Below, one piece after another: positions 1,836-51,754 of a stretch of DNA of 64,000 nt. The stretch is taken from assembly GCF_965363235.1 (NCBI RefSeq), contig NC_134843.1, positions 92,661,795 to 92,725,794 of the forward strand, written 5' to 3'. The DNA is from Mytilus galloprovincialis (lineage: Eukaryota > Mollusca > Bivalvia > Mytilida > Mytilidae). The notes beneath the pieces were generated by a model. The model saw nothing but the letters and a program-made list of their open reading frames with translations, did not search any database and had not been told where the DNA came from. Both the position numbers and the translations under genes were made by a program. Each line of letters begins with the position of its first letter. Positions within the stretch are counted from its first letter, which is position 1.

Positions 1836-1842
1836 AATATTG
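1836..1842. repeat. Left 7-bp target site duplication (AATATTG)
   Basis: AATATTG directly precedes the first base of the left terminal inverted repeat and recurs directly after the last base of the right one (51755-51761). An 8-bp duplication would need one mismatch (AAATATTG against GAATATTG, the latter borrowing the last base of the element). Confidence 0.8.
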
Positions 1843-1946
1843 CACCCAATTCTATTATATTAGCTGCTACTATCAGGAATCTATTAGTGATGTTAGTGTG
1901 GTAGTACCACTAACAACGGCCGACTTTCATACTGTACAGTACAGAT
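1843..1946 (+). repeat. Left terminal inverted repeat of the giant transposon
   Basis: It pairs with 51651-51754. Weaker similarity continues inward to about 1969, including a second copy of a 'gctaacaa'-type motif. It holds two internal dyads, an imperfect one at 1891-1915 (TGTTAGTG...CACTAACA) and a perfect 12-bp palindrome at 1930-1941 (TACTGTACAGTA). These are good candidates for transposase or accessory-protein binding sites. The transposase ORF opens 88 bp further in, so this repeat may also supply the promoter. Confidence 0.88.
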
Positions 1947-2033
1947 ATAACTGCTGTTAGCGCTAACAAAAGACAGGATACCATATCCGGAGATGAAACC
2001 CTCCGTCTACCGGGTCAAAACTTACGCACACAC

Positions 2034-5000
2034 GTGGTTCAACGCCCGTGGTTTAACGTTGGAAGCCCTGAACCGCCATTTTCAGCCGCCGTTTCAACTT
2101 TTTACACGCTATCTACTACTTTCACTACTACTTCTTCTAAGATGGTTGTGATTCGGAAAAGAAAAGCGTTCTTGTCTGCAAGATTTCATTCTGGGAAAAG
2201 TTCAAAAAAGGTCGTTTTCTCTAAACACTTTCGTGGTGTGAAAGCTGATGAGGGAGAAGTTTCTGACCTACAGCATCATGCAAAGTCATTTGGTGAAACT
2301 TCCACATCTTTATCATCTGTACTCTCTGTAGCCATGCCAGGTTCTTCAGCAATAGAAGAAATGATGAATGAAATTCAACCTGATGCTGAAACAGTTATGT
2401 AAAAAGGATTCGTAATCATGATTTAATTGCGGAGATTTGACCCCTTTTTTCTTTTTTGGTTTGATCATTAAATGCTTTAAATTATTTGTAGTGAGATATT
2501 TGGTAACGGGAAGATTTTTACTTGTTTTAATCTTTAGCACTGTCCCTAGGTGTCTCCCCTAGCAGGGAAATCAATCAATAAAACCAACATTTTGTACCCC
2601 CCTTTTTTTTCACTTCCCCTGAGTATCGTGCTGCACAAAACCCGCTTATTTTAAAGGTGTCTGTTTAATTTTGATATATATATGCTAGTATGATTCACTG
2701 TTTTTTTCATCAAATTGTATTGTTTGTGAAATATTGTTAAATGACTTAATTATGATTGTATCATTGTCATTGTCCCCTGTGGAATAGAAGATAAGTTGTA
2801 TTGTTACTGTATTGGCTTTGCTGTATTGTACTGTATGGTTAGAATTGCATCTTTTTTTTATTTATTAATGAACTTGATGTGTTTGACCCCCCTCATCCTT
2901 TCTGTTCCACTGATTATGCTGAAATTATGCCATTAAAAATTAAAATGCTTTTAATCTGAAAATTTGGTGAAAATAATGTTTTTCATTTACTTTTATAAGT
3001 GCTTTTAGATATTGAGCTGAATTTTGGTATTGTGAGTTGTCTACAAGGAGTTATGTTATTTAAGAATTGAATGCTTCATTTTGTAAATTTATTGGGGTTT
3101 AAAAGCGTTGACTGAACTACATTTTGTATGAAGCGTGAAATAACGGGACTATTCAAATCCATAACATTGAGTTATGTACATAATTAACCAGTCTAACATA
3201 AACAAAACAACGACATATATCAAGAATGACGTTTTCACACTATTTACAAACATTATTCTCTAGTGTAAAAACATGGTGGAATGAAATAATGCTTGCAGTA
3301 CAAATTTAAGTTTATATTCCTTTCTGCTAGCTTTGTTGATTTGATTTTTGAAAATTATGGCTTTGTAGTTTTGTAGACTATTTTTGTAGATAAAGGCCAT
3401 TGAACCACCTACTTGTATGTGTAAAATGTATCGTATGCATTACCAATGGTATTAACACTTGGTTCTGGTGTTTATATGTTTATTTTTTTCTACAGGGAAG
3501 CGTACATATTTATCTCTAAAGGAACAACGCTTGCATGATTGGAGTACCATTAGGGATGATATGTATGAGGCCTTTATCAGTACAGAAGCACCATCAACTG
3601 TTTCCTGCCATGAGTGCAACAAAGAGGCCCAACTTTTCAAGTGCATTGATTGCACACCATGGGAAATGGTCTGTGAAGACTGCTTATACAGGAGACACCA
3701 GTATCCACATTTGCATATGTTTGAAGCATGGAGGGTTAGCAATACTTACTGTTTGAATTTTTTTTTTTATGAAATCATGTTTGTACAATTCAAAGAAATA
3801 TGGAACATATTGTTTTATTGGACATGAAGATGTCCCCATTTTTATTTATTATTCTTAAACTTGAAATGAGTGTATTATTGTCATGGTCATGTAACATTGC
3901 CAAATGTAAAAACATTGATTAACATATTTATTCTTATTATTGGTGAATGGATCCACTAGCCTGATTTTTTGTTGGTCTGGTGAATATTTTAGTATTGTCA
4001 GTTAAGAAAAGAGCACATTTGATTATATATAAACACATAATCTAATTGACTGTTTTTCATATTTAAAATTATAGTATCAAAAAAGGTTAGTTTTTATATA
4101 TATGAAGATTCTACCCTTCATGCACTTAAGCAGCATTTATAGCTTAACTTTTTGAAAAAAAAACATTTTTTTAATTTTTAATATTTTCTTGTTTTCATGT
4201 ATTTTTTTGAATACATTGTTTTTTTATGATTATTACAGAATGAAGCATTTGTTGGGGCTGTCTTAAAAACACCTTCATGGATCTTGTCATCACACAGTGA
4301 TTGTGATTCCAATTATTTTAAGAGTATTGTAATTATAGATGTGAAAGGTATGTTAAATTAATGTATTGCTTATCAAGTTACAGTATAGTACACATGTATG
4401 TGTAAAAAAGAAGATGTGGCGTGATTGCCAATGAGACAACTCTCCACAGGAGACCAAATTACACAGAAATTAACAAATATAGGTCACCATAAAGCCTTCA
4501 ACAATGAGCAAAGCCCATACCATATTGTCAGCTATAAAAGGCCCCAAAATGACAAATGTAAAACAACTCAAACGAGAAAACTAACAGCCTAATAAATGTA
4601 CAAAACAATGAAGGAAAAACAAATATGTAACACAGCAACAAACGACAACCACTGACTAGGGACCGGCACATATTGAATAATAATGGAAATACATATCAAA
4701 GGTGCCAGGCTTACAATTTATATTACAACAGACATGATGATGATGATGATTTGTCTATAAAAGACTTATCAGTGACATTTGAATCAAAATAATTGAAAGG
4801 CCAAATAACAAAGTTTATGAGCATTGAGGAAACTTGGAATATGTCAAAGGTACAACAAAATGTATATACAACTTAAGGCCACCAATGGGTCTTCAACATG
4901 TGGGAAATCACACACCCAGAGGAGGTCTTGAGCAGGCCCCAAGATCCTAATGTATACTAAGTTAAAAAAAAAAGGAAATCACTCTTCACTTTGAAACAAA

Positions 5001-8000
5001 GAAAAACCGAAAGTATAATGTTTCTAATAAAAACATTTTTATTGTTCTGAACACGAGTTTACATTGAAAAAGAAAGTGTGACTTAGTATTGTATTTAACG
5101 GTTAAATGTTCATAGTTCCTTTACATAAACAATATAAAATAGTGTTCACATGAAGAACAAATGATGAATGGGTTCCAGAATATGTACTGGGGACACATTG
5201 TCTTGGTTAATATGTATATTTATATAAAATAATTTAGCAGCAGCAAAATTTAGCATTTATACAAGTTTTATCAACTTATTTATGTTTTTGAAATAGTGAA
5301 AAATATTTGTTTACCTTTTTAGGAAGACAGCATAAACGCAACATTCAGTTTTGCAAATGTGAACCAGAAGCTGTTACATTGGTGAAATACAGACTGTGGC
5401 CTTCAACCACTAAGTTTCCTAAACTAGCATTTGACATGGAACTACTCAAGTGGTTATATGGACTACTCATAGAGTGTCATGTCTCCTGCAAAGGATTTTG
5501 TGAGGCGTTGAAATTTAGAAGTTCTAAATACCAGAGAAATTATGTCAACTTTCAGGTTTGTTTATGAACATATTCACATTGTTTGTTACTCTATGATACT
5601 GTGAATGAACTGATTCTAAACAATGTTCTATTTCCTGACAAATAGATTTTTTTTCTGTACAGTTTTGAATACCATGTGATTTGGTGCCATTTATATATAT
5701 TGAACAATTATGGATTAAAATTTAGATTATAAAAACCAATAATTATCAATATACATATATGCTATTGCAAGAATAAAGGGTACAACACCAAAAGAAAGCC
5801 ATGAATAAATATTTAAGATAAAATTTATCCTTGGTAAGTATGATGTCAAATGATCCTTGTCTTAATATGTCAGAAGTTAAAAGTAAAAAAACACAAATCT
5901 TGTATGTTAAACAAATTAATAAAAACAGGCTTGTTTAGTTATATGAACTTTTTTTAATATTGACGATTGCGAGAAGAAGATAAGAACTTTAATCTGGTGT
6001 AATTTTTAGGTGTTAGACATCTACAAGTCTCTTATGACAGAGACTTTTGCAGAATTCAGGAACTTCTTCCAAAGAACTGAATTTCCAGACAAGTTAGATA
6101 ATGGAACTGAATGTCCAGCTTGTTTTTCAGTAAGTTTCTTTTAATTTTTATTTCACTACATTATTTAGATTTATGATTTATTATATATGATTAAATGATT
6201 TTACTTGTCTTTTGCATCCTTGTAGAAAAAAAAGAAAGGTATATGTATAAAGAAAAACTAATTTTCAGTGCTGAACAAAAACATTCTATATATTTTTTGG
6301 ATTAACCAAAAAGCAACAAAAACGATATAGTTTGTGTTTGGAATATTCGAACTGGAGTTGAAAATCAATTATCACAATGGAATTTAATACAATCAGAAGA
6401 TCAAGCCAATTTTCCAAATCATACACAATGTGCTTTGGTGAACCAGTGGTGACCAGTTCTCTTTTAAGACTGAAATTCCCACATAATGGCTAGGGACTTG
6501 GTACATCTTATACTTTTTCATTTACAAGTGTCAGCAACTAAGTAATATCCATAATATAGGAATAATAGTATGAAAACACCTGGGAAAATATCAGATTTTT
6601 ATTTAAAAATAGGTTAACCTTGTTTGTGTAATGAATGTTTTTTTTTGTGCATATATGTATTGATGAATTCAAATTCAGCTAAACATTATGATGATGAATT
6701 GAATATATTTCAGACATTGCCAAAGATATACAGTTTTGATGCTGATTTCCAGCTAGTTAGGAAGGCATCATCTGGCAAGCAGTGGGCAGAACCAAAACAC
6801 AGCAATAAATTTTTCTTGGACCAGGCTTCAGTAGATGCCTTTATGGGCAATTATTACGAAGACAGGGGAAAGCCTGATGTGGTAAATAGTTTTCTCTAAT
6901 TCTTCGGCAATTTATCCCTTTCTCAACCCATTGATTATCAAAATTTAATCAACGTGTGGTTCATTTGATCTCAATACTTCATTGGTCGAATTTCCATTAT
7001 GACGTCACATTTTCTTGCTTTCTCTAGAATTTTTCTATTGTGACGTCATGAAAAAAGGCGACCATGCCTGATGACGTCACAATTTTGACTAAATTTCGTC
7101 TAAATTTTAAATATTTTAAACACTCGGCAAGCCTCAAGTTTTAAATTTGAAAATTAAACTGTCTCGAGTGGATAAATATCGTATCACACTTGATGCATTG
7201 GTAGAATCTATATTTATAACATTTTTTTAAAACCCACAAGTAAATTGATTTATTTGTTACTGTGGATTAAGCGTTACAGGCCTCTACATTAACATTTTTT
7301 CTAACTTGTCCCTTCGGACAAGTGGCAAGAAAATCAGCTTGTCCGAACTCTTAACTCACTTGTCCGAATTCATAATTGAAAATCTAACATATTGATGATT
7401 TATGCAATAATAACACTTGGGCTTTGCTTGTGCCTAATAAAAGGATCATTTTGTAATGTTATATGAATACCGCATCAAAATACATTTCATTTAATATTTC
7501 AGAATGAAAGTTTTTTTGCAAGACTGTGTTCTCTGACTCAATTTTACTATCATTTGTCAATCATTAAATCATCATTTCTTCCCAAACCACTACGTTCCCC
7601 TATGGACCTATTCATTTTTTAGTAGTGGTATGGGTTAAACCAAGGATGTAAATACACCTGGCCACCTTGAACATGTATATGAGTAAACCTTTTTAATTTA
7701 TTGATGATGTCAAAACAAGCTTTTACAATTTATTTTGATTTGTATATACATTGATATATGATCATGGAGTACATACACATTTCACTAAAAAATCTGCCTT
7801 TTTAGATTTTTTTTTTTTCATCTTAAACTTTTATATCACATGTCATAGATCTTATCAAATAAAACCTCTTTTATTGTATTGTTATGCATAAAAGCAAAAT
7901 CAAATGAAACATACTTTAATTTAATATTTTAAAGTTTAGGTAAAACTCCATATGGAGGTGCTCCTAATTCAAGGCAGCTTATACTAAGAAGATACATTAA

Positions 8001-11000
8001 CATTGGTTTCTTTCCCCTTACTTATATCCCCCTGGTCAATGGCTGCCAGCATGTTCAATACTCCAAATCAGAGACATATTATACAAGTTTTATATGTCTC
8101 TGGTTCAATCAATGAATAATTATTTCATTAAGTACGATCAATAAAACAATCATTCATATTTTTGGGAATGTATAAATCTTGAATTTGATCTATTTTTATC
8201 TGACCTTGATTTTTCACTTGTCCCATCGGACAAGTAGTATGGTGAATCTACTTGCCCGACACCTGTGTCCACTTGTCCCGGACAATCGGACAAGCGTTAA
8301 TGTCGAGCCCTGCGTTAAAATCAAATAGTATGGGTAACTTTGAAAAAGATAAATCTAAATCTCATAAAACTGACTTTTGGAATCATCAATAAAGTTAGAC
8401 AATATTGGAGAAATAATCTTAAATAGGATAGTAGAGGGGCATTATGTTTTCTGGTCTGTTCGTCCATCTCACAGGTTAAAGTTTTTGGTCAAGGTAGTTT
8501 TTTATAAAGTCCAATCCTAATTTCACGGTCCACTGAACATAGAAAATGATAGTGCGAGGGGGGCATTTGTGTACTATGGACACATTCTTGTTTTACAGAA
8601 TTTAAGGATTATTAATTTTTATTTCATAGGAGTGTAATGACTTTCAAGCCGGAAACCATCTCCGGTCTAAGAATAAGAATAAGAAGCTAGCAGAAACAGC
8701 TGTATTTGGGTCTACATGTAGACATGAATTCCCAAAGTATTTCTTCAGTCTGAAACATGGTGAAAGGTAATTAACAATTATTTCAGTTTTATACAACTGC
8801 AAAAAAATATATTAATCACAATCCAAATTCAGACCTGTATCAAGCTTGGATATTGTGTCTATTTTTGGTAAAATAATAGCAGTTCACCAGACAAATCACC
8901 ATACATATATAAACCAAAAAGACAGCAGTTTTTATTTATTTCTGTTCTATTCAATGAGAGAACATACAATAAGTGGTACATATTTTAAAAAATAGTTCAT
9001 AATTGCTACACTGCTGTAGCTTTGTCAATGAATAAAGTAGTTCGGTTATTTTAGAACCAAATGAAAGCATTTTTGATCACTGTAGAACCCTCGTTGAAAT
9101 TTTTTTAATTGAAGCATATATGAAATTTGAATTGAATTGTGGCTTTATTATACCAATACAAAATTGATTTGTACTTTTAACCTTTTAGACTTGGATATGC
9201 AGTTTACTTATTGCGAAAGTTATTGGAAGAAGAAAATAGTGATGACAAGGATCCCTTGTATATAATGTATGACATTGCTTGCAGTCTAGAAAGTCATCTC
9301 AAGGTACAGTTTACACTCGTTGTCTTGAACTCGCTCAAGTCGAAAGTTTTCATACTACCAAACTTTGCTCCATATAAATATATGTATTTCATGAGTCGAA
9401 ACATCATGTTACTCAAACTAAAATTATAGTCCCCAGTTCAAAAAACACATTGAAATCGCGTTTTTTATCTTTATTAAATACACACGTCAATCATGATCTC
9501 AGGATTTAAATGGCTTGCCCAGTTAATCTGACAAATGTAATTTAATTTCTGATCATTGACCACTGTATTGATTTTTGACATTCTTTTCCCTTATATGTTT
9601 TATAGAAGATTCTCTTTATTCACCTTCATATAATTAATTAGCAATTCATTGTTATAGATTATATGGAATTTATTAAAATTATTTTTTTATCTATTAGCTG
9701 TGATCATGCACTTGTATATGTCAACCCTTTCAACTTTAAATCACGCTAAGATCTCAATGAAGGAGTTCAAATTAAAAAGGTCACAACATCAGGAATAAAA
9801 GTGTGGAAACACATACATTGTACAACATTTATACTTGAAACAAGTTAAAAAATTATGATGTGGACTGACAACTAAGTTTAAACCAAAAAACAATTGTATT
9901 AAACTATACTAAAAAATAACCAAGATACAAAAAGCATATAACTTAATTAATATGATAAAAGAATAGATTATGATACATCCATCTTAATCCTCAATAGCCC
10001 ACTTGCCAATTAGCACGGAATTCCCGAATTTGACTTTGAATTTTACACTTCATGCAAAGGGGAGTTACTCTAGCCCCGGACAAGCTCGGCGATTTCCAAC
10101 GTTAACTAACCAAATGTAAAAATCATTTTCTCTTGACCTGTACGGTTTCAAAACTTCATCTTTGGTGTAACTGGTTGAAATAATAGGGACATTTTATCTT
10201 TAAATTTGTTTTGTTTAAAATATAAATAGATTTTACATTACAAGATGCCGATTTTATAAGGGTTTGTTCAGTAAATCAGACGTCTTATCCGTTGTCACGT
10301 TATCTAATTTTTGATTGAATTACTTCACTTAGAGTGGAAATTTTAAAGCACGGAATCGAAGTCGTTAATTGGCAAATAGACTATTTCAATCTCCATCCAA
10401 TATCTATTGAGACTTATTTTAGCCTTACAAAGCCAAGTAAGAGTTGTGTTCCTTGATCTGCCAATCTTCTGGTAAATGAGTCGAACTATTTCTCTGGTCA
10501 CGCTCGCATCACCCACATTCAATAGTTCAACTTCTATTGACCTACCCTCCCACACACATTTTAATGAAATAGCCCTTACAGAATTATGCAATATGTAGTG
10601 AATTTTGGCACATTAAATTTTAAGTTTCTTAAACAAGGTTTATTTATTAAGTTTAGCCCTGACATTTTTTTATTCAAATTGACTGCATACCACTTATTAA
10701 GAAGACATTGCAGTGTCATACCACCTGAGTATTTTCCCTAACAGTCTTTGTTAAATTAAAGGTTTTCAAAAATTTGTGCAGGATTGATCTTTGTTTCAAA
10801 AAAATTCATATTTGTCCTGAATCAAGTTTATTCCTGTCCAATGCAACTGTGAAAAAATCACACAAGCTTTCATTGCATATAAGAAAAAAAAATTCACTGG
10901 ATGTCACATTTCCATTTGTTTACTTTAATTTTCATGTTTACAATCATAAACCATGACGTCACCTAATATTGCACAGATATTTTACAGAATCATCAATTAA

Positions 11001-17345: not shown

Positions 17346-17846
17346 GACAAAGATGATGTTGATGAATCAGAGGGAGTTGGCAGAGACACTTTAATTAATT
17401 GATTCAATGACTATTTGTACATGTGTATCATGAAACAATATTTGAAGAAATTGTATCTTTTAAAATGGCATATGTTTTAGGAAATTTTTCAAATCAACAT
17501 TTATGTACCTCTGAAAAAAATATATTTTGTTGTCTTTAACTTTTGGTGAAATGAAATCCTTATGCATTCAAAATGTGATTTCCAGAACAGTATGAAACCC
17601 TCTGGCGTACTGAAAAGTCATTAGGTTGCAAGTCACTGGCGTAAATAGAAAAATCTTGAACTTGACTTGTTACAATCAAATCTTGCCAATGGTATTTTGG
17701 TTGTTATTAAATCATATGTCATTTGATAAGGTACATCATAAATGTTTTATGTGTGAAAAAATCATATGCCTATATCAAAGTCCTGATTTTTCTACTTTTG
17801 AATTTTTTTTTTGTTAAAATTTATGATAAGGCTATTGCTAAGGGAT

Positions 17847-20310: not shown

Positions 20311-20324
20311 AGTGTAGAAGAGAT

Positions 20325-32820: not shown

Positions 32821-35800
32821 TTACAAAGACACATTATTTTTAATGTTTGTTTGAGGCTCCCATGTTGGTTTAGCAAAGCCTTCCCATTTGATCAGGGCTT
32901 CTGTTTTCCCTCTTCTCACACGGGTTTTCAACACATTTTCGATGGCAAACAGTTCATCTGAGGATAAAAGAAATTATAAATTATTATCAAGAAAAGACAA
33001 ATATAAATAACAAGGCAAACAGGTTAAAAAAATAACTTAATGGTTAGTTTATTGTATTAAACTTTTATTCATATACTTGTTTTAGAGAAAACTCATATAT
33101 ATTTTTTAATATAAAATTCTAAATTATTATCTTCCATCAGGTATTTGTTCTGAGATTCACAGACCACAGTATGCATGATATCCCAAGTAAAAAAAGTGTT
33201 TTCAATGCCTGCTTTTGTTAATTGTTTGTCAATGTAAATATGCTAGATGTCAGTCATCAGAAGGTTATCACAGACTTTAATTAGAAGACCTGTTTTCCAG
33301 ATTGAGATTCAGATTCAAAATTTTATTATAGTATCACCACATACAAACATAACATATTGACATAGTAACATATAAAACATATAAAACATTTGCATTGTAT
33401 GCACCAATCAAAAAAGATTTATGAGAGACTGTTTAAGACAAGTTTATATATACATACATTTAAATACATAACATCATATAAAATGAACACAATTCAAACT
33501 AAAACAATTTTCTTTCTTCATAGAACTATTGATATAAAATACTATTTCTTTGTATTAAAATACTGTTGCAGGTTTCGGCAACTATATGCGAAACATTTTC
33601 ATTCTTAAATAAAAATATAAATTTTTCATTATCTGATAAAAGATTAAAATGTTCATCAAAATTTAAAGCTTCGTTTATCATTATTTGTCTTTTATTTTTT
33701 CAGAGGAGAAGATTTTTTAAAGTTACCAAACATGATGAACTAATTCAGTAAAATTGTCTTTAAAGGGCAATAACTCTATAAGAAGACATTTGTTAAGTAA
33801 AATTAATTTAAAACTAAAAAGATAAAAACCTTCTGTAGGGTTAACCAACTCTTGTGTTGATTCATCTAATAAGAGAGGACTTAACATCTCCACATCTTCT
33901 GATGATAACTCTGCACCTATATGAAGATGTAACAATTAATATTATATTTATACATCATAATGAATAGATATATATTTATTGTAATCAAATGGACCAACTG
34001 AGATACTTATACATCCAGCAGCCACTTTCATATTCATTTTAAATTTATAATTTTCAAGAGTTATTTAATTCTAAACCTGCATGGCTTAAGGAAAATTGCT
34101 ACATTTCAAAATAAAAGCTTTTCATAATAATGTTATATTGATAGAGGATAAATAAGGGATTGACAAGAATGTGTCCATAGTACACAGATGCCCCACTCGC
34201 ACTATTATTTCCTTGTTCAGTGGACCGTGAAATTGGGGTCAAAACGCTAATTTTGCATTAAAATTAGAAAGATCATATCATAGGGAACATGTGTGCTAAG
34301 TTTCAAGTTGATTGGACTTCAACTTCATCAAAAACTACCTTGACCAAACACTTTTACCTGATGAATGAATGGATGGACGGACGGACGGACGAACAAACGG
34401 ACGAATGAACGGACGCACAGACCAGAAAACATAATGCCCCTCTACTATTGTAGGTGGGGCATAAAAAAGAAGTAAATTATTCTTACAGAAATATTTGTAA
34501 GTCATAATAGGAAATAGACAAAAATTGAGATGGGTTAGAGGGAGGGATTGAAAAACATTTTAAGTATAGATGTTCTATTAAAGCTTTAAAAGAAAAAAGA
34601 ATGTGTCCATAGTGCACAGATGCCCCACTCACACTATCATTTTCTATGTTCAGTGGACTGTGAAATTGGGGGTCAAAACTCTAATTTAGCATTAAAATTA
34701 AAAAGATAATATCATAGGGAACATGTTTACTAAGTTTCAAGTTGATTGGACCTCAACTTCATCAAAAACTACCTTGATAAAAAAATTTAACCTGACATGG
34801 GACAGACCGACAGACCAGAAAACATAATGCCCCTCTTCTATCGTAGGTGGGACATGGAAATATTCTAAACAATACCTCTTTGACTTTCCACTGGTTTTTG
34901 CTTTTCTTTTTTTCCTTCTGAAAATATATATTATTCATTAGACCAAGAATCTCATATTTTTTTATCAAATATGTAGAGAAGCTTTGGAATACAACATATT
35001 TGCTGTATAAGGTGGTACCCAACACCATAACTAAAATAAAATTGGCTCGTTTGTTTTCATAAAATTTGGGCAAAATATCTACTTTGACATGTTGATAAAA
35101 ATATAAAAATTTTGAGGAATTTGAACCACACAATTTACGGTAATAATTTGACTGGTTTGGTAGCAGTTTGACAAACACTAATTTTGATCATTGAGAAGCT
35201 TAATTTCTCTCAACTAATAATAAGTGATTAAAATGTTCAGCTAATTTTTTAAAGAGTTATCTCCCTGTAGTGTTGGGTACCACACTAAACCAATGGCAAG
35301 TTTAAATTTCATCTAATTTAAAATAAAATAAAAGATGTCTCATGTCAGATATCTTAAACAATCTAGTTTTTTCAAAAACCTTATAAACTTTATAAGATAC
35401 CCTATATACAGTATATCTACTTTAGTGTTTTTGGGTTGTTTTTTTTGCCTATCCCCTGTCCCATGTGTGTTTTTCTGGAAAAGCCCTTATATACTTTATA
35501 GTATCAACTTTAATAAATACTATTTCTTGGCATCTCTATAAATACTAAAAACTATATATATAGCCGATAGCCCAGCAATACTGGTGGACCCCGATTTTAT
35601 TAATATAAATATAATTGATAAACACAATATACATAAAGCATTTAACTATCAATGCATAATAAATTTATATTTCATTCAAGAATTTACTACATTATTAATA
35701 AGTAAATTGTGTTCAAAAATATTTTACTCTGTCATCAACGATCTCGCTGACCAGGAAAAACAAACAAAAACGAGTTAACTTGGTCAAACTCCATTTAACA

Positions 35801-38800
35801 TGTAGTCAAAAAGACTACATTTTAAATAAAGTGGAAAATGTCGGAAACCTGTGTCCAAACCCCAATGTTCGGAGGAACGTCTCGAGAGTTTTACTTGGAC
35901 AGTAAATAAAATAATTATTGGTACATCATAAAGTAATAAATTAACTTTCTCTTTAGTAAAATATATAAATCCTACTAAATACAAAATAGAGTAAAACATT
36001 TAATTGAAAAAGAACTTTATTTCACTGTTGTCCAGTCTGATGCTTGGCTAGAAGTGACCAACGAGGGAAATATTTCCACTTATCACGTGATATAAATATA
36101 TCATACGTGTACTACAAAGTTCCCGTATCAATAGTATTCACTAGTACCGTTAGTACAGTAATTTCCCACTATACTATCGAACCGTGGGAAATTATAAAGA
36201 TAGTTTTATATGACATCTTATATACATTTTTTAATCTTTAAAGAACCACATATCCTAAACAGTTTTAAAAGTGAAAATCATCAATCTCACCTCCATTGCT
36301 TTTCTTATATTCTTTTTTTCTTTTGTTTACATCTGAAAATATTCAGTTTTGTTTATATAATTTTAAGTGCAACAATGACACAGACATATGTATATATATA
36401 TATATATAATGTATAATGTATAATGTATAATGACTCTAAATAACAGCCCAACAATGTGTATTGGTATTTATATTGATTTTGTTATCAATAAATTAAAAGC
36501 AAACTTAATATTAATATTATATACATATGCACATTTATGGATCTACAATCTGTCTTTACCTGTTTCTTGGCGTTGCACAAGGTCATGTTTTTCTCTGACT
36601 GTTTATGACGTCTTGACACTAAATCCATTGGATGTTGGATGTGTAATGATTGATAATTTAGTCTTAGATGCATGATTTTTTTATTAGTTGTTAGTGGCTT
36701 TGAACTAGCTGTCTGTAACTGTGAGTACTATCAGACCTGTACATAGTCTTTATGTTGTTGGAATGTATAAGTAGTCAGCCACATCCACTCTGTGTATTTG
36801 TTAGATGTATTTCTATTTGTATCCATATGATCGGAGTTAAGCCTTTTTCAACTGATTTTTATAGTTTATTCTTATGTTGTACTGTTACACCAATGTCCCA
36901 GGTTAGGGGAGGGTTGGGATTAGGGCCTTTTAAAGCTGACTATATGCTGGATGGATTTTGCTCATTGTTGAAGTCCATACAGTGACCTACAGTTGGTAAT
37001 TTTTGTGTAATTTAGTCTCTTGTGAAGAGTTGTCTCATTGGCAATCACACCACATCTTCTTTTATTATATAATATGAAGCTAAGCATCATTTAAAATTGA
37101 AAAAAAATATCACATCTGCTTTATAGCAGAGGATCAACTCAAAGATGTAATATTTTGTTTCAACTGTTTCAGTATTAAAAAAATATAGCTTACCAGTGCT
37201 ACATCCTGGTTTTTCAAATACATTACTTTTGCTAACTGTAAAAAATATAAACAAAACAACATATTATTTAATAAGCGTTTCCAATTTGAAAGTTAATAAT
37301 TTTGATTATCTGTTCTTTGATAAATAGGACTATATAGTATAAGATAATATGTTGTATGTATTCAGATAGTTAACAGCAACTGGTTGTGGGGTAAGACTCA
37401 ATGTTCAAGATCTTTTGTTTTGAATGAAGAGATGTAACATTGGCAATCATACTACATCTTATCAATCGCCAAATTGCTTTATATTGTGGCTTGCAGCTGA
37501 TATTTAAATATATCAATATGCAGAAGACCTGATAATTGTTTATTGAATTTGATTTCTTAAGCACTTAAGTTTCTAGGTCAAATCACACTGTTTTTGATGA
37601 TTTATGCCGTCTGCAAAGAAGTGAAAACTCTGGCTGTAGCATTGTGACATCCATTTTAAATAACGATGGCTGAAACATTGTGACATCACTATTAAACTCT
37701 GGTTAAGATGTAACAAACACGATACAGGATTTTCCTAAGCTGAGCAGGGTGATATCAGCATAGGGAAGTCGGATAAGAAATTATATACAACATATATCCT
37801 TTTTTTCTACTTCATATATACCAGTCAAACATTAATTTGTCACTAGTTCAGATTTTATACAATACCTCCATTGCTCTCTCTTTCTAGGTTTCTTTTTTTC
37901 ACATCTGAAATCATAAATTACTTCTGAGACAACAGAAAAATAGAAAAGTATATTTCTTCAGTTAATTTTCAGTAATGTAATCTTTTTGTCTTGAAAAACT
38001 GATAACCATTAAAAATTATAAAAAAATGTGCAAAAATACAAAGATGATCTTGAAACTAAGTATAGAAACCTATATGCATAGATATGAGTAGAGACTTTGA
38101 ATTGTATGAATTGTATATCAATGATAACTCATGTGTATTTGATTTAAATGTGTCATAAGAGCTTGTGGAATTTGTCATAAAAGGGCAATAACTCCTTTTT
38201 AGGCTTTATATTGGAAATTTGGTAATGTTGATTTATTTTAATATTTTATTTAGCTTATAATTTTCTCTGTTAATAGTTCCTCTCATTATATTCAAGATAC
38301 TAGTAATCAACAACTAAAAAAATCGTTAATATCAACCTTAAAGAAGCTTGGGTTAATTAATATATATATTTATCTGAAAATTTAACACTATTATAGATCT
38401 CAAGCTGCTGCTGATTTTTATGAATTGCTGTTAGGCTTTCTGTTCATGTTTTTTTTTTAATTTTAGATTTTAACTTATTATACAATACCTCCTTTACTCT
38501 TTCCTTTTGATTTTCTTTTTTCTACATCTGAAATCAAAAAAATACTTTTGAGACAAAAGAAAATTAGGAAAGTTCTCAGTATTGTATTTCTTCTCAAATA
38601 TAAACCTTGCTGTATAAAATTTAATCTACAAATACCCTGTCAGATTGGCTATAAATAATTTTTAGAAACATAGGTCAAAATCTGCATATTAACCCTATGT
38701 TCTGTGGCTATCTTAGTTAGTTGGCTGGTTCATAAGATATATTTATAAAACTAGACAATCTAAAGGTGATTTAATTCAAATTTTGGTTCAATTTAGCCCA

Positions 38801-41800
38801 GTAGTTTCAAAGGAGAAGATTTTTGTAAAACTTAACATACAACAACAGATGACAACAGATGTTGTCGACCAACTGATGACAGACCTGAGATGTTACTTTA
38901 GGTCAGAGAGGGTTATCTGAAAATTAAAAGTATAAATTACCTTCCCCTGATATTGATGCTTTATTTTCAACAGTGTCTCCATTTGCTGAAAATCAATTAA
39001 ATATATTAATCTTGATTGTTATTAATAATTTATGATTCAATTGAAAAATATGTAATTTGTTTTCTCTTTTTAATATTTTTTTTTGAAGAACATTGAAAAC
39101 TAGTTTTTTTAAGTGTTTTTTTTTTTTTTTTTTTGCCTTGATGTTACCTGATTTCATTCAATTTTATATAATATGTATTTCATGGTCTCAAAACATGAAT
39201 GAACAGTTCTAAATAATGTGGTCTTTTGGGCAGTAAATAATGCAGTTTATTGGACTCAGCTATTTCAATAACATTGAAACCAAATTGCAAACTGACAAGC
39301 AAAAACAAATAAAATATACAAAAAATTATGTCTGACAGTCTTATGAACATTTAACATCTTTTATTTTGGTATCTAGCAATCCTTAAAAAATTTGAAGACT
39401 ATTTAGAGAATATTGATGATTTCATATAAAAATGGTAGATTTGTTTTCCTAGGGGCCAATTAAATAGCCTTATTATACCTTCTTCTTTGATATATAATCA
39501 TTACTTACAATTCACAACATCTTCTGTTAGTTCTTTATTCCTATGAAAGCAGAACATAATAAAACAAGTGTCCAAATTTTGCAATGACTTAATTTTGATC
39601 ACTGTCAATTGTATATATTATTTGTTCATTGTTTTGAAAATTAACAAAGTTGTTAGGTTTCATTTAAATAGGTTTTGCAATATGTTAAGTGACTTTTTAA
39701 GATTGGTAATCCTTTTTTCTTACCATTTTAATATGTTCTAAGCCATTAATTTCTATTTCTTTTTACAAAATAAATACTAGCAATCAATACTTTAAAAAAA
39801 GCTCTTAACAAAATGTACTTTTATTTTGAATATAAAAACACACGACAATATCAATAAAACTTAAGTGCTTAAGAACTGTAAAATTCATATCATCATAAAA
39901 TATAACTGTACATTAACTTGTTATATAAATGTTCAAGAAATCATGTTAAAAGCTCACTCTACGCTTTGTGTTAAGTGAACTCAAAATATGAGTTTTATAG
40001 AAGTTATATTTATTTAATACCTGATCTGAAATTTCATCTCTGTTTTCAACAACTCCTTCAGAGTCTCTTTTCCATAAGATGATGGGTCTTTCAAGGTAAT
40101 GCCCTCTGGCAATCCTTCAACTTCTACCAATATATTCCCTGCTGTAATTTCCTTGTACGGAACTTGGGTTGCCAATTTAGTTGAAATGGCTAAAGTAGAA
40201 TATAAGAATAACATTTATAATTTTGTTTATTTTATTATATATTTTCGATTTATAATATAATTTGGGTTTTTTTTATTTCAAAAGTAACATTTCCTGATCC
40301 AATCAAGCTTTCACACATATCTGTTTGAAGATTTTGAAAATAGATTAATACATGATTTATTTTTGTTAACTGAAACCCCAACTAATTTGAATATCTTGTA
40401 TAAATATCAAGCATTTATTGTTAAGTCTTTAGTGTTTTTTCTCTTTCTTATTTTCCACTAAATTTTTGGTAATTGTTCTTAGTGTCTTATTTCTATTTTC
40501 TCTAATTCTTCGGCAATTTATCCCTTTCCCAACCCATTGATTATCAAAATTTAATCAACGTGTGGTTCATTTGATCTCAGTACTTCATTGGTCGAAATTT
40601 AATTATGACGTCACATTGTCTTGCTTTCCCTAGAATTCTCTATTGTGATGTCATGAAAAAAGGCGACCATGCCTGATGACGTCTTATATAAAGAACACAA
40701 TTTTTTGCAGAACATTGTAAAGAAAGTATCCATTTTGACTAAATTTCGTCTAAAAATCATTAGAGAAACAGATTCCACCACTATATCTCGTGTAATACGA
40801 TATTTATCCACTCTCGACAGTTAAATTTTAAATATTTAAAACACTCGGCAAGCCTCGTGTTTTAAATTTGAAAATTTAACTGTCTCGAGTGGATAAATAT
40901 CGTATTACACTCGATGCAGTGGTAGAATCTATATATCTCATCTTGTATTTGATTTTACGTTTTTCTCTTTTTCTTAAATGTACTTATGTCGACTAGCTGT
41001 CACTTGATGTATTATGTTTTTTTTTCATGGGATATAATACATTTTGTTTGCCTCTGCTTTTATTCTTATGATGTTTCAATATATGTAACAATAAATGACA
41101 ACCACTGAACAACATGCTCTTGACTTATAACAGGTGCATGTAAATTGCAGTAGGTTACAATTGCTTGGTTTCTACAAATGCTGAGTACATGTATATAAAT
41201 GTTTGTTCAAATATTTTTTTCAACTAAGCTATTTGAGGAGTGATCACTATTATAGTATTTTTTTATTTATTTATTTTTGGTGTTTTAATGCCTCTTTTAA
41301 GCACCCCTTTTGGGCTATTTCCTGCAGTCAGTTTTTAGTGGTGGATGAAGCTGTAGTACCCAGAGAAAACCATCGACCTTCGATAGAAAAACTGATTATC
41401 TTAGTCAATTGAGATTGGAGTCAAGTTCCCAGCATAAGTGAGATTCAAACTCACATTAACCTCAGTGCTGACTGGCTTCACTGTTATAGTATAAATGAAC
41501 TCAAAAATACATCAACAGAGAGTCATATTCTTTTTATTAAACACCTAAAATTTGTAAAACTTTTGACTGTATCTAACTTACATACCCCAAGCTGCATTAA
41601 AATGCTTTCTCACAAGCTGTCTTAGCTCTTTCTTTTCTTCTTCATTGCAGATAGTTTGATCAGGTTTTGTAGCTTTAATTTTTTTTCCTGAAATAAATTA
41701 CCTACATTGTAATAAAAAAATAAACATAAAGTGTGATCCATTAGGTCACAGGTACATATTATTGATATTTCAAACTAGGTAAGGTCAAAATATTACTTAT

Positions 41801-44602
41801 AAATCGAAAAAAATATGATAAATGTAATAAATTTTACCTGAAACGAACAAAATAAATTTCTCTTGCAGGTCAAAATCAAAAAATGGGGCAGCATCTTGTG
41901 TACCAAAGAAATCAGGTGCTGCCTCCTTCTCCCTATCACAGCCTAATCCACAAACTGCATATCCAATGGAATCCAAAGTTTGACACTGAAAATACATGTA
42001 TAAATCAGTAAAGTTTATGATCATTGGGATAGAATTAAAATGAATATCTGAGGCCTTTTCATTCATTAATGATGGATTATTGCCTTTTTGGGGGGTTGGT
42101 GGGGTGGGGGTTGAAAAAAAATACTTTGGCATTGCTGAAATAACTGAAAATAAATATAACAAATTTAGTATACCAAAGAGGTTCTGTTCCCAAATCTATA
42201 CAGGACAACACAGTAAAATGGCTGTGTTACAGTAAAACATTTTTAACAAAATCTTACCAAGAAGAAATCTTGTTTCACCCAATAGTTTTGTTGTGAAAAT
42301 AAGTTTCATACAACAAAGGATTAACCTCAATGTAAAAAATAATTGTGATATTCAAGTTTGCATTTTTACTTGTACCTATATATAGATTTGCAAAATTTAA
42401 AATCAACCTAAGTGAATTAAGCTATTATTAAAAGAGGTTTGATAATTCAAAACCTTATAATTATTTTAATTTACTGATCTACTCTGAGATAGTTGCAATC
42501 TATGTAAAACATACCTTTGACCTAAATAGAATTCCATCTCTCTCTAACTTCTATTTGCCTTAATCAAATGGAATGACACATATTACCACAACACATTGGA
42601 TGGCAATTTTGAATTAGGGTGGATTGACTTTTTTGGTTCTAGAGTTATGTCCCTTTTTAACTTAATATGCCAGCATGCTATATGCATGGATACATTCTCA
42701 ATTTATTAAATAACACAACTCATTCAGCTAATCCATATTTTCAATTGTGTAAGTGTTTCAGTTCAATTTTTGATAAATTTAGCAGCTTGTTATAATCAGA
42801 CTATCTATTTTATTAGGATTACTAATAATAACAGTTAATATTATACAGTTGAAATCGATAGGCAACACAGAACAAAATGGTACCCTTATAATTGCTGAAG
42901 GTTAAAATAATTAACACTTACAGCCTGGCCAATAATGTTAAGCTGTGCTGATATCACAGCCTCCCTAGGCTTTCCTTTATAGGGATCAAGCCTAATCTGC
43001 TGTGCATCTTCCCTGAAGACCTCCTTTTCTCTCTCGTCTAATTTTCCCCACTCATTTGCAATATGTTTGCAATATGTGGGACCATCCATTGTTCCTGAAA
43101 TAAATAAACAAGTCCTTTCAGTTCAGAATTAAGATGTCAAATTATTAGATACATAATTATGTGCAGACAAGTTTTGTTTTTAGCCATTAATAAATGCAAT
43201 TTGTCTGTTATTTTTATGTTCCGTTAAATATGTTTAGTAAATTTATAAGTGTAAAAGTTGGTTCTACTGGGGAAAAAATGTGTTTCTTGCAATGCTGCTA
43301 AAATTATATATATGGTTTAACAAAAAATGTAAACGTCTAAAATAATCAACTTCAAACTGCATGGCATTATTATGTTCAAAGCCAAAAAACAATATAAAAA
43401 ACAAAGAAACTAAAAACAAACCCCTTTTAACTGTTTTAGCAAACAAGGCATAGGAATTGGTCCCTGTTGTTATTGCTGCCTTTCTTTTCATAGGTTTACC
43501 CTCTCCATTTTCTCGTCTTTCTTTGGCATTTCTATTGCCAATCCATTCCTTAAATATTTTTAAACTGAATTCACATTGACAGGAAGTAATAAGGTAGATA
43601 CAGTATATAATTAATAAACTAAGTATAAAGAAACTAATTTTGAAAGATGAATCTTATGACAATTGAATAAGAATGGAAACGGGGAATAAGCAAATACATG
43701 TAACGGATAAGATACTCATATATATGTTAATTTTTTACATGAAATATTATACAATGTGAACAAATAAAGTTTTCACTTAGTGAAATGTGAATAACTCTTA
43801 AATAGCGAAAAACATATACTTAATTATTTTACAAATTACAGGCTGTCACAAAAAACTTTTTTTGGGGTAAATTTAAAATTGATGATTAGTTAAATACTGC
43901 CATTAATAGTTGTTATTCTTTGACCAATAAGCGTATTTAAAAATAAGCTGTATTAAAATTGATTGACTATTCATGAGAGAGAAATATGATTGTCTGTTCA
44001 GTATAATCCAAACAAATGGCTAACCATTGTTGTCATTTGTGTTTTTACTAACTAACCTTTATTCTAAATATAAAGTCAATATATAAATCATGAAACAAAT
44101 GAAACAAAAAATAGTCTTAAAAAACTGAAAAGCTAAATTATCTGGAAAAAAAGTAAATTGCACTTTTGTAATTTGCTACATACTTATCTTGAACAAACAG
44201 GTTTTAAAGTACATTAAAGCATATAATTACACACTACTTTGTGAACAAATGATATTTTAAAAATAAAATGATTGGTAGATTTCATTTTGTTTGATCAGAT
44301 GTAACTTTTATTTTCTGAAGATTTTCTCTCTTACTATTTTCAAAATGCCTCAAAAGGCAAATTGTGTTAAAAATAATCTAAATTAGCATATCTAATTGAT
44401 GCATTAATCATAAAAGACTGCCTGAAAGAATTATGTATAAAATTCTAGTATTTACCTTGACCCTCTCTGTTGAAATTGCCAAAGAATTGGCAACTTCCTC
44501 TATCTCATCCTTACATCTTTTTCCGGCATACTTCATTCCCCCTTTCCAGGCTTCCTCCAACTTCACATTCATATTATGTGAATAATCTTCTCTTGATCTC
44601 TT
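32821..44602 (-). CDS. Homeodomain-HMG box-chromodomain protein carried by the transposon
   Basis: Fifteen exons read on the minus strand: 44602-44456, 43548-43422, 43094-42922, 41985-41838, 41687-41586, 40189-40021, 39540-39509, 38985-38941, 38527-38489, 37904-37866, 37235-37194, 36332-36291, 34917-34876, 33916-33830, 32957-32821. Phases match throughout, giving 456 residues and a stop. Counting from the first visible codon: residues 1-62 form a homeodomain (LEEAW; STERVKEWIGNRNAKERR with W51 and N54); about 76-125 an HMG box (NSYALFAKTVKRG, then IANEWGKLDEREKEVF); 298-382 a Lys-rich linker made of microexons; 412-456 a chromodomain (LFAIENVL, RGKTEALIKWEGF, TWEP). It should be nuclear and bind DNA and methylated histone tails; a role in transposition or silencing is inferred. 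The upstream start is unresolved because the first visible exon opens on an acceptor in phase 0. I know no named gene with this layout. Confidence 0.75.
34160..34455 (+). repeat. Interspersed repeat with GGAC tandem tract
   Basis: 'gtccatagtacacagatgcc' opens it, 'gatggacggacggacggacg' is a short tandem tract, and 'ataatgcccctctactat' closes it. A second copy follows at 34600-34860 and a reversed one at 8429-8600. It lies in an intron of the homeodomain gene. Confidence 0.65.
34600..34860 (+). repeat. Interspersed repeat, second copy
   Basis: It belongs to the same family as 34160-34455, but the GGAC tract has shrunk to 'gacagaccgacagacc'. It ends close to the microexon at 34876-34917. Confidence 0.65.
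36555..37065 (+). repeat. Long copy of the common mussel-type interspersed repeat
   Basis: It runs from 'gtctttacctgtttcttggc' to 'caatcacaccacatcttc'. Its last 110 bp ('ctcattgttgaagtcc', 'gtctcttgtgaagagttgtc') resemble a satellite monomer of the 21230-28925 array. Shorter copies lie at 62035-62205. It fills much of an intron of the homeodomain gene. Confidence 0.55.
40495..40930 (+). repeat. Interspersed repeat with 161-bp foldback, copy 2
   Basis: It matches 6885-7215 but is more complete. The segment 40770-40930 folds on itself, with 'agattccaccactatatctc' pairing with the complement of 'gatgcagtggtagaatct', and 'gtaatacgatatttatcc' present in both arms. It is intronic to the homeodomain gene. 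Confidence 0.65.
41203..41490 (-). repeat. SINE-like repeat
   Basis: 'tagtacccagagaaaaccat' and 'gagattcaaactcacattaa' resemble a tRNA-derived SINE of bivalves read from the other strand. The latter matches the complement of a tRNA B-box region. The recognition is from memory and the copy is diverged. Confidence 0.4.
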
Positions 44603-48545: not shown

Positions 48546-48554
48546 AATATCCTC

Positions 48555-48728: not shown

Positions 48729-48834
48729 TGCACATCTACAGGTTGTGTACAACAACTGTGTAAAGTTTCATCAATATTGATAAACATTTAGGAGTAATTA
48801 CACTTACAAGACTTGTTGCCATTTATTGCTATAT

Positions 48835-49610
48835 CAGTCAGGGAACTTACTGAAATAAGTGATTTTTAAATCACTTATTTAAGTAGCAAATTCAAAGTTT
48901 TGTCACAAATTGGGATTTTGTAGTTTTTTCAAAATTTTAAACACATAGGTTTAAATAATATCTTTTAATTAGTAAAATTGAAAAAAAATGAACTTTTTGC
49001 TTCTTTTAAGTAGCAAGTTTATGCCTTTGATGCTATCATTTAGCTGAAAATTCTATTTTAGTTGAAAAAATGCTATAATAATGGCTTTACATAATGAACT
49101 GATACTTTCTTAACAGATTTTTCCCAGCAGTGGGAGTATTTTTCCTGTAAAGTTCAAGGTTTCATCTTTCAGATTATGTAATAAAATTCTACTGTTCGCG
49201 ATAAAAATTTCACTGTTCGGGGGTGTTGAAATTAGTGGGGGTTATTAAAATAATGATACTTAAATAAGTGATTTTTGGAAAGGAAATTGAGGTATGATAC
49301 TTAAACAAGTGATTTTTATGTCATTATCCTAGATTCAGTACAAGGTCATCACCTGAAATGACCTGGTCATCCTAGACAACACAGATGTTGGTTCTGATAA
49401 GTTTAGAAACATAATTAGTCCCTGGATCATTTGTATTCTATATTTAAAGCTACAATAAGATTAAATCACTTCTTCTAGTGATTAATTTGTACTACTCAAA
49501 TAGGTGATTATTAAAGAAAGACAACTCTTACTTGCAACTTTTATGGAAATAATGTTACTAAAACCAGTGATTTAGAAAATCACTCATTTAAGTAAGTCCC
49601 CTGATGACTG
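48835..49610. mobile_element. hAT-like 776-bp element, TATAT target duplication
   Basis: The left end CAGTCAGGGAACTTACT and complemented right end CAGTCATCAGGGGACTTACT form inverted repeats that continue inward through 'agtgattt'. TATAT flanks both sides (48830-48834 and 49611-49615), and the older repeat it split resumes on either side. The dyad 'aaataagtgatttttaaatc' at the left arm and at least four further AAGTGATTT motifs lie inside. No transposase ORF. Confidence 0.65.
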
Positions 49611-49799
49611 TATATTAAACTAAGTAAATTCAGTTATCTCCCTTGAAATAATTCCAACCAGAAATATTTTCCTTCTTGCACATCTTCAGGTTATGTACTA
49701 CAATTGTGTAAAGTTTCATCAATATTGGTTCATCCATTAAGGAATAGTAGCGCTTACAAGATCGAAATATGGACAAACAGACAGGGTGAGGTCTAATTA

Positions 49800-51650
49800 T
49801 TCATATAAATAAAAAACAAAAAAAATATCCACAGTAAACATCTTCATCAGTCAAGGTGCTACACATTACGACATTTAAATGTATGCACCACTAATGTGTC
49901 AAGTGTCTAAATTTAATCTTAGCATCAGGTTCTAATAAGATCTGTGAGTGGTGAGGAGCTATCCTTAGAGTGTGCTGAGTTTTCAAAAATAAGTGGGTCT
50001 AAAATGTTCCAATCTCTGATGGTGTTTGGTATGAAGATGTACTTGTAGTATCTGTTCTTGCATACATGATATATATGTAAAATTTGTCTCTACATGTTTT
50101 ATGGTTGTTCCTGGTGTTTGATACAATGTGTGTCATTGGGATGTTTGCTTTACCATTTAGTGTAGCAATATATTTTTGTTTTCTCTTATTCTATCTTTTA
50201 CTGATTTCTAGTTTAGATCTTTTAGTATCTGTGTCATCAAGCCTTCTTCTGGAGTAAGTAACTAAGTTATTGTTATAGTTTATATTATTGTTGTCATTAT
50301 CACATCAAAACTTTGATATTAAGAATTACAATGATTTTTCTTTAAACTTTCCACCAGTAACATCCATAGTTTTTTTTTAAATTCTCCATTTCCATGTACA
50401 TAACTAGAATAACAGTTACATGTACTGAGTTAGATGTAACATCTATGGTTACATTACACTTAAATCATACATCTGTCTACATTTCAAATATGTGCATCAC
50501 GATCCTCCACTAAATAGCAACATTTTAAACTATTTATTTCTAAAGATGATCTCCACGACGGTCACCAGTCACTGAGTCTGTAACAGAACTAAACTTGTTT
50601 TGTACTTGTAGAGTGATGACTATTACTTTTAATTTTATTGAATATATTTCTCCATCTGACTAGGGACGTTTATAAATTATATAAGTCCTGACCTCACATC
50701 TATAAAATTGTGTCCATACTGTGAAATTATGTACAAATTGCCTTCAAAGTTTCCAACTTTTCAATTCATTATGTGGTTTTAAAATTGGTCAACCAATGTC
50801 AACCTGTGTCTACAAAACGCATAAATGATATAGATGATTTACGTTATCCGTAATACCCAAAAACCGACAACGGACGAAAATTACGTGTATGGCATTGCAC
50901 GAATAATAAGCAGATTTAACCCTTAGTTATCTAAGACATATAAATTTTATCAATATTTTTATATTAACATTGTTAAACGAATAAGAGTTTTATCATGGAG
51001 CCATCCTTATACATGTTCAACACTGGAATTGATCAATATTGCGAACACGAATCTATCATAACGTCACTGAACGGACTCCCGTTTCAGACAGCACACTGAG
51101 AAGTCTGAGATTATGAAAGATGACTATCAATAAACATATAAGAAAGTAAAGACGCTAAACTCATTTGAACTTCACTTCAGGCTGCATCATTTTAAAATCT
51201 TATTAATGATTTTAATAGGCCTTGATTATCATACTGTACAGCATATTTAACAAAAATCTGAGAAAAAGTATTTGAATATTGTCAATTAGGAGACGTTTTG
51301 ATAAATCTTTACAATGAGTCAATGCGTTCTATGTAAAGAAAATAATAAAGGCACAATGCTGACTGTGCTTTTCTTTTCGAAATTGATAGAATAAATGAAT
51401 ATGCAGAGTAATTATGTAAATGATATTTATCAGAAGTGTAAGGTCTTTAAGTTACCATCATTTTTACTGTAGATCTGAAACTGTAACAAATGTCGAAAAT
51501 TAAATATTCGTGCTTTTTATACTTCCATGGAATGGTTTTTAAATTGCAAGGAAGGCTTTCATTGGATGGCTTCTGATGCTGAATATTCTAAAACAAATCC
51601 GGATGATAAGCGGAATCAAAGTATATGTTGTTAGTGCTATCAGTGGTAAC
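49800..51650. other. Gene-free stretch next to the right terminal repeat
   Basis: I see no supported protein-coding exon or repeat. The missing 5' exon of the minus-strand homeodomain gene could lie here. One weak candidate is an ATG-GAA followed by a GTATAA donor at 51528-51521 (minus strand), which would splice in the correct phase, 123 bp inside the terminal repeat. Confidence 0.3.
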
Positions 51651-51754
51651 ATCTGTACTGTACAGTATGAAAGTCGGCCGTTGTTAGTGGTACTACCACA
51701 CTAACATCACTAATAGATTCCTGATAGTAGTAGCTAACATAACAGGATCGGGTG
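51651..51754 (-). repeat. Right terminal inverted repeat of the giant transposon
   Basis: It pairs with 1843-1946 over 104 positions without gaps. The five mismatches are at positions 6, 9, 12, 17 and 24 from the tip, and the inner 80 positions look identical. It keeps the same dyad and TACTGTACAGTA palindrome as the left end. Confidence 0.88.

Follow-up and report, generated by a model that had tools for sequence, protein, structure and literature searches.

Can a stretch of almost 50 kb in a mussel genome be one single DNA transposon, and what would the two genes inside it then be doing there? The question was raised by a locus of Mytilus galloprovincialis (assembly GCF_965363235.1, contig NC_134843.1), for which a window of 64,000 nucleotides, meaning the whole stretch of DNA analysed, was surveyed; it maps to C6:92661795-92725794 of the species' own genome (1.385 Gb, 331 contigs). 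Within the window, a unit of 49,912 bp (1843-51754) is bounded by terminal inverted repeats (TIRs) and target-site duplications (TSDs) and carries a KDZ transposase gene together with a second gene, called gene 2 here. An initial annotation, made from the sequence alone, had described a clean-ended KDZ DNA transposon of a mollusc, and both the domain and the ends were confirmed. We consider it very probable that the unit is the insertion of a single giant cut-and-paste transposon of the KDZ superfamily, with a second gene that belongs to its own family and that we infer to be accessory. Positions without a contig label are those of the window, and the coordinates of all features are collected in Table 1.

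Ends and extent of the element

The ends were recomputed from the raw window sequence. The ungapped inverted repeat of 104 bp with 99 matches was recovered and extends further, to 116 matches in 127 bp, and the reported 7-bp TSD was found on both sides with 7/7 identical bases; the size given for the unit holds as well. The element ends are CA..TG (CACCC at 1843, GGGTG at 51754). A bordering 7-mer duplication has a chance of about 6 in 100,000, and neither this nor a 104-bp inverted repeat of 95% identity is likely to be a chance event. The left TIR also has matches of 99-100% at four other places in the genome. Seven of the ten GTTAGYG matches of the whole element fall in its two ends, in a count made without a shuffled control, and these GTTAGYG-rich ends are likely candidates for the binding sites of the transposase. 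The 49.9 kb are partly made up of satellite DNA, the array already noted in the initial annotation, which accounts for about 6.6 of the 7.7 kb within 21211-28924, and of nested insertions (1.8 kb). No tRNA and no Rfam family was above threshold anywhere in the window.

The KDZ transposase gene

The transposase model was obtained with a small gene finder and by spliced alignment to the closest database protein, P0001 of M. edulis; the alignment gave 17 exons, of which a spurious one of 6 bp was removed to leave 16. The two methods describe largely one gene; they disagree on where exon 1 ends and on the starts of two exons, and one of the two adds an exon of 13 bp. The unbroken 16-exon transposase claimed earlier stands as to its exons and its frame, which is intact over 945 residues with a single terminal stop; the splice sites are complete at the acceptors (AG in 15/15) but not at the donors (GT in 14/15), intron 1 having no GT donor in the window copy. 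This donor is canonical in all five other copies that span the site (C6b, C8, C11a, C11b and C11c, described below), and the M. edulis and M. trossulus proteins have an exon join exactly at this position. A weak in-frame GT at 2293, chosen by the gene finder, could substitute as the donor; its use would remove 34 residues, a stretch predicted to be disordered in the M. edulis protein (predicted local distance difference test, pLDDT, below 50 for residues 1-86). Because intron 1 is without its GT donor, the window copy, though nearly intact, probably makes less transposase or an altered one.

Pfam was scanned with the gene-finder version of 864 amino acids, which is without the acidic C-terminal tail. 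The KDZ domain (PF18758) was matched at 143.3 bits (cut-off 26.6, 1.2e-41), CxC1 at 45.3 bits (cut-off 26.9, 1e-11) and CxC2 at 37.5 bits (cut-off 27, 3e-9), and CxC7 was not among the matches of this version to E 1. The acidic motifs FDADF (326), MYDIAC (446) and DGESLERLW (501) are present, and when 42 of the 56 database relatives are aligned, the columns of D327, D448, E503 and E506 are either invariant or conserved to at least 90%. The hallmarks of the KDZ superfamily were thus found together: PF18758 with its DDE residues, an N-terminal CxC zinc cluster and dispersed copies with shared ends and TSDs, the latter assessed in two copies. The structure model of the M. edulis protein has a mean pLDDT of 75 and gave no match in the PDB at E<=0.001 with Foldseek; an RNase-H fold is suggested by Pfam, by what is known of the family and by the order of strands and helices in the predicted model.

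The window transposase is identical to the M. edulis protein at 935/941 aligned residues and to that of M. trossulus at 544/547; in either comparison, two of the differences are artificial and stem from the chosen exon 2 boundary. The bivalve members among the 56 relatives (e.g. Pecten, Mercenaria, Sinanodonta and Saccostrea) are 36-51% identical, and the whole set spans bivalves, gastropods, lancelets, a sponge, cnidarians, an ascidian, an echinoderm, a nemertean and fungi, so the earlier statement that KDZ elements are best known from fungi and some fish was too narrow. In the transposase tree, which has no labelled Kyakuja references and places the window family among bivalve KDZ proteins only, this family groups with P0004 of M. 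trossulus and P0008 of Mercenaria (support 100/99). A ratio of nonsynonymous to synonymous substitution (dN/dS) of 0.37 for the 3' part of the KDZ gene was not used, because its first ~50 codons are visibly misaligned. Scans of viral contigs with the transposase and with the gene 2 protein returned no relative.

Copies in the genome and evidence for movement

Copies were tracked by first-look searches, and their counts are lower bounds. The left end gave at least 12 matches in the genome, of which 8 are at 91-100% (the window's own two ends and six elsewhere on C6 and C11) and four at 72-80% (on C1, C13, C10 and C4); the right end led to the same 12 places, and the C8 copy was located by a protein search. 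About 45 kb inward was read for the C11 copies and 10 kb round C8. With substitutions against the window copy counted on matching pieces of at least 300 bp, the six other copies are C6b (91883195-91892449, ~9.25 kb, both ends kept and the middle lost; 0.77%), C8 (67117523-67124014, with window 46265-47688 joined to 1952-7043 in the same orientation; 0.63%), C11a (window 1843-5269; 0.93%), C11b (1843-6049; 0.72% in the element part), C11c (1843-5459 joined to 38738-50634, with gaps; 1.01%) and C11d (51754 to 42998, with gaps; 0.96%).

The mobility proposed in the initial annotation is borne out by the presence of the same ends at other loci and by an empty target. When eight flanks of 1.5 kb were compared pairwise, 25 pairs did not match. 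Matches were confined to three pairs, each of them C6b against the window (77.9-83.8% identity over 111-596 bp), and two of these reveal a related empty site. The left flank of C6b can be aligned as far as window 1087 and the right flank from 1083 onward, the two adjoining in one uninterrupted host repeat; C6b therefore entered a pre-existing repeat, with duplication of 6 or 7 bases. The target reads TGATACT in the window flank, against TAATACT to the left of C6b and CAATACT to its right; the left end of C6b is short by the four terminal bases of the element. A left end with two substitutions and no loss was also considered and rejected, as the flank alignment runs right up to the missing bases and favours the four-base loss. 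TSDs were thus assessed in two copies, the window copy with 7/7 and C6b with 6/7 and a related empty site. C6b, with both ends and without the catalytic exons, implies either movement in trans or a deletion after insertion.

Because the superfamily and the target duplications point to it, movement by cut-and-paste through the KDZ transposase is proposed. The KDZ protein, with its CxC zinc domain and RNase-H-like DDE core, would bind the GTTAGYG-rich ends, excise the element and join it at a 7-bp staggered target.

That two independent repeats were only joined by the assembly is extremely improbable. Satellite DNA and nested insertions do make the region hard to assemble, and the C8 copy is rearranged, but C6b and C11c, which are internal-deletion forms, both bring the same left and right parts together in an unchanged order, and the same 7 bp adjoins both ends of the window unit. 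That the insertion is old, immobile and fixed at an orthologous site in blue mussels is a rather unlikely account, although the near-identity of the M. edulis and M. trossulus proteins, which represent only one and three member sequences, would fit it, as would the lost intron 1 donor and the single full copy. On the other side, copies at other loci have diverged by just 0.6-1.0%, the window TSD is perfect, and two insertions of the window copy are missing in other copies.

Some further features of the copies were recorded. The order of the C8 pieces, right-hand before left-hand in the stretch C8:67117501-67127500, is that expected of tandem or circular forms. At 46265, where the C8 match also begins, the window copy lacks about 325 bp present in C11c and C11d. 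Where C11b matches window 7277-8312, it holds a copy of the nested repeat and not more of the element. Two left ends on C11, at 33649928 (+) and 33950007 (-), lie 300,080 bp apart; they were rejected as one giant element because their flanking 7-mers differ and, over the 45 kb read, both prove to be truncated left parts.

Gene 2 and its association with the transposase

The second multi-exon gene of the initial annotation was found as 15 minus-strand exons that reproduce 446/446 residues of the annotated M. galloprovincialis protein LOC143080738; this identity is not independent evidence, because the entry is probably the annotation of gene 2's own locus. For both genes the closest database entries are uncharacterised mussel proteins. 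Gene 2 has a GTF2I-like repeat (PF02946, 47.9 bits, cut-off 27, 1.7e-12), and a PDB profile built from three gene 2 relatives matched TFII-I repeats (2d9b, 2dn4, 1q60 and others) with E of 4e-7 to 1e-6; a single I-repeat stretch was seen in each of the four proteins scanned, not the several repeats of TFII-I proteins. The chromodomain (PF00385) scored 25.1 bits in P0057, exactly at the cut-off, and 30.5 for the exon alone, with 45.0 bits in P0059 and 26.1 in P0058 among the relatives and a PDB profile match of E 8e-9 for the family. The family profile also matched 2da4 (E 1.9e-8), which we take to be a homeobox domain. As judged from sequence, these parts suggest a protein that would bind DNA and modified histones.

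Gene 2 DNA is present in four of the seven copies (window, C8, C11c and C11d). The search for relatives, in which 7,999 candidates were scored and long vertebrate GTF2I proteins were left out, returned five, three of them being the queries. The nearest relative of gene 2, P0058, lies at C10:21367866-21380039 on the minus strand, with KDZ 3' exons at 21302154-21303387 on the plus strand, which is the same opposed orientation as in the window. Since the C10 KDZ and gene 2 blocks are each largely collinear with the window (~70-87% nucleotide identity, with short scattered matches in addition) and keep this relative orientation, the opposed pair appears to be older than the window family. A weaker third pair occurs on C11, with a gene-2-like match at 25833653-25833778 (plus, three stops) and KDZ at 25865863-25867101 (minus); its closeness means little, because C11:23-37 Mb is rich in KDZ remains. 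In M. trossulus, the contigs recorded for the KDZ protein P0004 and for P0061, a relative of gene 2, are both 113,486,924 bp long, and the two locus numbers are near each other. No gene-2-like match was found near another KDZ family on C3 and at C10:19.98 Mb among the matches listed.

Selection was estimated between the window and C10 copies of gene 2 by the Nei-Gojobori method over 444 codons, from a 17-exon alignment that includes a few short, probably spurious exons. The dS was 0.91, dN 0.27 and dN/dS 0.29, and the ratio by blocks was ~0.16 (residues 1-140), 0.24 (140-204), 0.29 (I-repeat), 0.60 (linker) and 0.38 (chromodomain).

Gene 2 could also be a host gene that one ancestor of the family captured and has since carried passively as cargo, with no part in transposition. 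We regard this as unlikely, though with an appreciable chance of being right. It would agree with the giant elements of Ectocarpus, which often hold extra genes of unknown function (PMC12477816; here, as for the other papers cited, the statement concerns the portion available), and with the lack of gene 2 from C6b, C11a and C11b in the stretches seen. Against cargo stand the diverged gene 2 on C10 (dS ~0.9), which has KDZ exons nearby and opposed to it as in the window, the equal contig size of the M. trossulus pair, and the purifying selection, although the ratio is 0.60 in the linker. Because of this selection, a role as helper or in steering through chromatin is rated above passive cargo. 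Gene 2 is probably a KDZ accessory protein, and its product would be a DNA- and chromatin-binding factor kept by selection because it aids the element; most likely it would tether the element in chromatin or steer it there, or else ease its silencing.

Several results weigh against a single mobile transposon with an accessory gene of its own. In the stretches read, each of the six other copies shows truncation, deletion or rearrangement, and the first-look searches of the genome found no second full-length copy; several full copies, which the initial annotation had looked to as a check, were thus not seen, and because the window copy is the only one of full length, the transposition of 50 kb as such is unreplicated. 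The 6/7 TSD of C6b presupposes the loss of four left-end bases, and 6 bp are as possible as 7. On C10, KDZ exons and gene 2 are 64 kb apart, of which 60 kb (21306001-21366000) lie outside the sequence read, and the 26 kb read upstream yielded none of the 5' KDZ exons. A gene-2-like exon match on C7 (2.8e-13) has no KDZ match on C7 among the matches listed, a point that cargo would also explain. As to the gene 2 domains, P0061 gave no chromodomain match in Pfam; the homeodomain (13.4-21.5 bits, cut-off 22.9) and HMG_box_2 (16.1-20.0, cut-off 22.4) are below cut-off, and neither is listed by Pfam for P0058. The gene 2 structure model, made from four sequences, was unusable (mean pLDDT 41.7).

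A bolder and quite doubtful proposal is that bivalve KDZ transposons have an obligatory I-repeat/chromodomain protein that reads the chromatin of the host and so steers or protects the element, and that the TFII-I repeats of vertebrate GTF2I derive from it. If true, these repeats would trace to a transposon accessory protein and not to an ordinary host gene. The vertebrate GTF2I proteins are those lost in Williams syndrome.

Classification and comparison with known KDZ elements

The element is a KDZ transposon of unassigned lineage; the lineage is left so because its TSD and ends, its TIRs and its size fit no one named KDZ group compared. The initial annotation had called it Zisupton-like, and this assignment was rejected on TSD length (7 bp, and 6-7 bp in C6b, in place of 8) and by domain type (no CxC7 domain found in the version scanned). 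Fish and nematode Zisupton elements share with it an animal, multi-exon KDZ transposase (PMC12062965, PMC9297572) and differ by 8-bp TSDs (PMC12730594) and by CxC7 in the fish protein (PMC12062965); for the Pristionchus Zisupton, TIRs and no TSD are reported (PMC9297572). An assignment to Kyakuja was not made, as TIRs are present and there is no reference tree with named Kyakuja. Fungal Kyakuja elements have 7-bp duplications and CA..TG ends without TIRs, whereas Zisupton and a Dileera have 8 bp (PMC12730594). The mushroom elements Kyakuja-1_LB and -2_LB resemble the mussel element in 7-bp TSD, CA..TG ends, KDZ transposase and an accessory gene; they are without TIRs and carry a TET/JBP dioxygenase, where the mussel element has TIRs of 104-127 bp and a GTF2I/chromo protein (PMC12730594).

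KDZ1, KDZ2 and KDZ3 of Cryptococcus neoformans are like the mussel element in having the KDZ core with CxC1, long TIRs and mobility; they have TIRs of 139-241 bp, a size of ~9-11 kb and TSDs of 8 bp (KDZ1) or 4-8 bp (KDZ2, KDZ3), and, unlike for the mussel element, no second gene is mentioned in the available portion (PMC12810828). With 4-8 bp in KDZ2 and KDZ3, TSD length may separate KDZ lineages poorly. The remark that the unit is very large for a DNA transposon is upheld, the longest KDZ found reported being 31.7 kb (PMC12477816). This Chlamydomonas element, which moved, and the giant KDZ elements of Ectocarpus (up to 30.3 kb) are oversized like the mussel element; the latter also share nested insertions and extra genes, with a transposase that is often damaged and for which mobilisation in trans is proposed. 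They differ in being algal and shorter and in having accessory genes mostly of unknown function (PMC12477816). In bivalves, the KDZ domain is enriched in Crassostrea gigas (PMC10546077), and the KDZ proteins in databases belong to the same transposase family; the sources consulted on them give no description of ends, size or a second gene.

Value of the findings

In the literature, searched by titles and the beginnings of abstracts, no description of the mussel element was found, nor of any transposon with a GTF2I/chromo gene, and no paper in the collection searched has both "Mytilus" and "KDZ" as whole words. As far as these listings show, the size, the described bivalve ends and the GTF2I/chromo accessory gene look new, and so does the pairing of a KDZ transposase with gene 2. 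Fungi have KDZ elements that carry an epigenetic accessory gene (TET/JBP), and the mussel element is an animal counterpart with what is probably a chromatin-reading protein, which suggests that chromatin factors have been recruited repeatedly by large DNA transposons. The locus provides a concrete case for asking how a cut-and-paste element of 50 kb can exist, together with a mussel protein that has a TFII-I repeat. It is also a warning for annotators, as the database entries nearest to both genes are labelled uncharacterised mussel proteins.

Location of features and neighbouring sequences

Table 1. Features of the element and of its target in the window (strand "." where none applies)
Feature	Position	Strand	Basis or remark
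Relative of the C6b target (TGATACT), uninterrupted, outside the element	1081..1087	.	host repeat in left flank
Left TSD AATATTG	1836..1842	.	end recomputation
Left TIR, starts CACCC	1843..1969	+	99/104 in outer part; 116/127 extended
GTTAGYG motif cluster in left end	1884..1967	.	motif count
KDZ transposase gene, 16 coding exons, 945 amino acids	2142..17345	+	spliced alignment, Pfam
Transposase exons 1-8	2142-2394, 3496-3734, 4239-4347, 5323-5555, 6010-6129, 6714-6881, 8630-8766, 9189-9303	+	
Transposase exons 9-16	11315-11398, 11964-12144, 12963-13052, 14145-14222, 14758-14815, 15226-15273, 15940-16127, 16609-17345	+	
Intron 1 donor position, non-GT in window copy	2395..2396	+	comparison with other copies
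Nested insertion in transposase-gene intron	7277..8311	.	6-bp duplication GCGTTA; empty site in C6b
Truncated duplicate of last transposase exon	17802..18215	+	duplication also present in C10 relative
Satellite arrays, 76-79-bp and higher-order 158/308-bp units	21211..28924 (21211-22041, 23012-23486, 23643-28924)	.	between the two genes
Gene 2, 15 coding exons, 446 amino acids (LOC143080738 isoform X1)	32824..44572	-	spliced alignment
Gene 2 parts (residues)	homeodomain-like ~5-51, HMG-like 69-119, GTF2I repeat 210-278, chromodomain 405-443		
Nested insertion, 776 bp	48835..49610	.	5-bp duplication TATAT; empty sites in C6b and C11c; absent in C11d too
Right TIR, ends GGGTG	51628..51754	-	99% matches on C6 and C11
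Right TSD AATATTG	51755..51761	.	end recomputation

Other KDZ material was met in the genome. The other KDZ family lies at C3:75391030-75397379 and 75492606-75504750, two copies in opposite orientation about 100 kb apart, and at C10:19985330-19995771, the copies being near-equal in score; C11:23-37 Mb is dense in KDZ and gene-2-like fragments of several families. Around the element, the host repeat of the left flank spans ~968-1648 and is 78.7-83.8% identical to the C6b flanks. Directly to the right, a minus-strand open reading frame (51926-52213) presumably resembles the C-terminal end of a polyprotein of a retrotransposon without long terminal repeats. A tandem array follows at 53661-54274 (164-bp unit, 3.8 copies, 94% matches), and about 9 kb to the right of the element a single-exon open reading frame on the plus strand (60695-61543) contains an alpha-kinase domain (Pfam, 4.6e-24).

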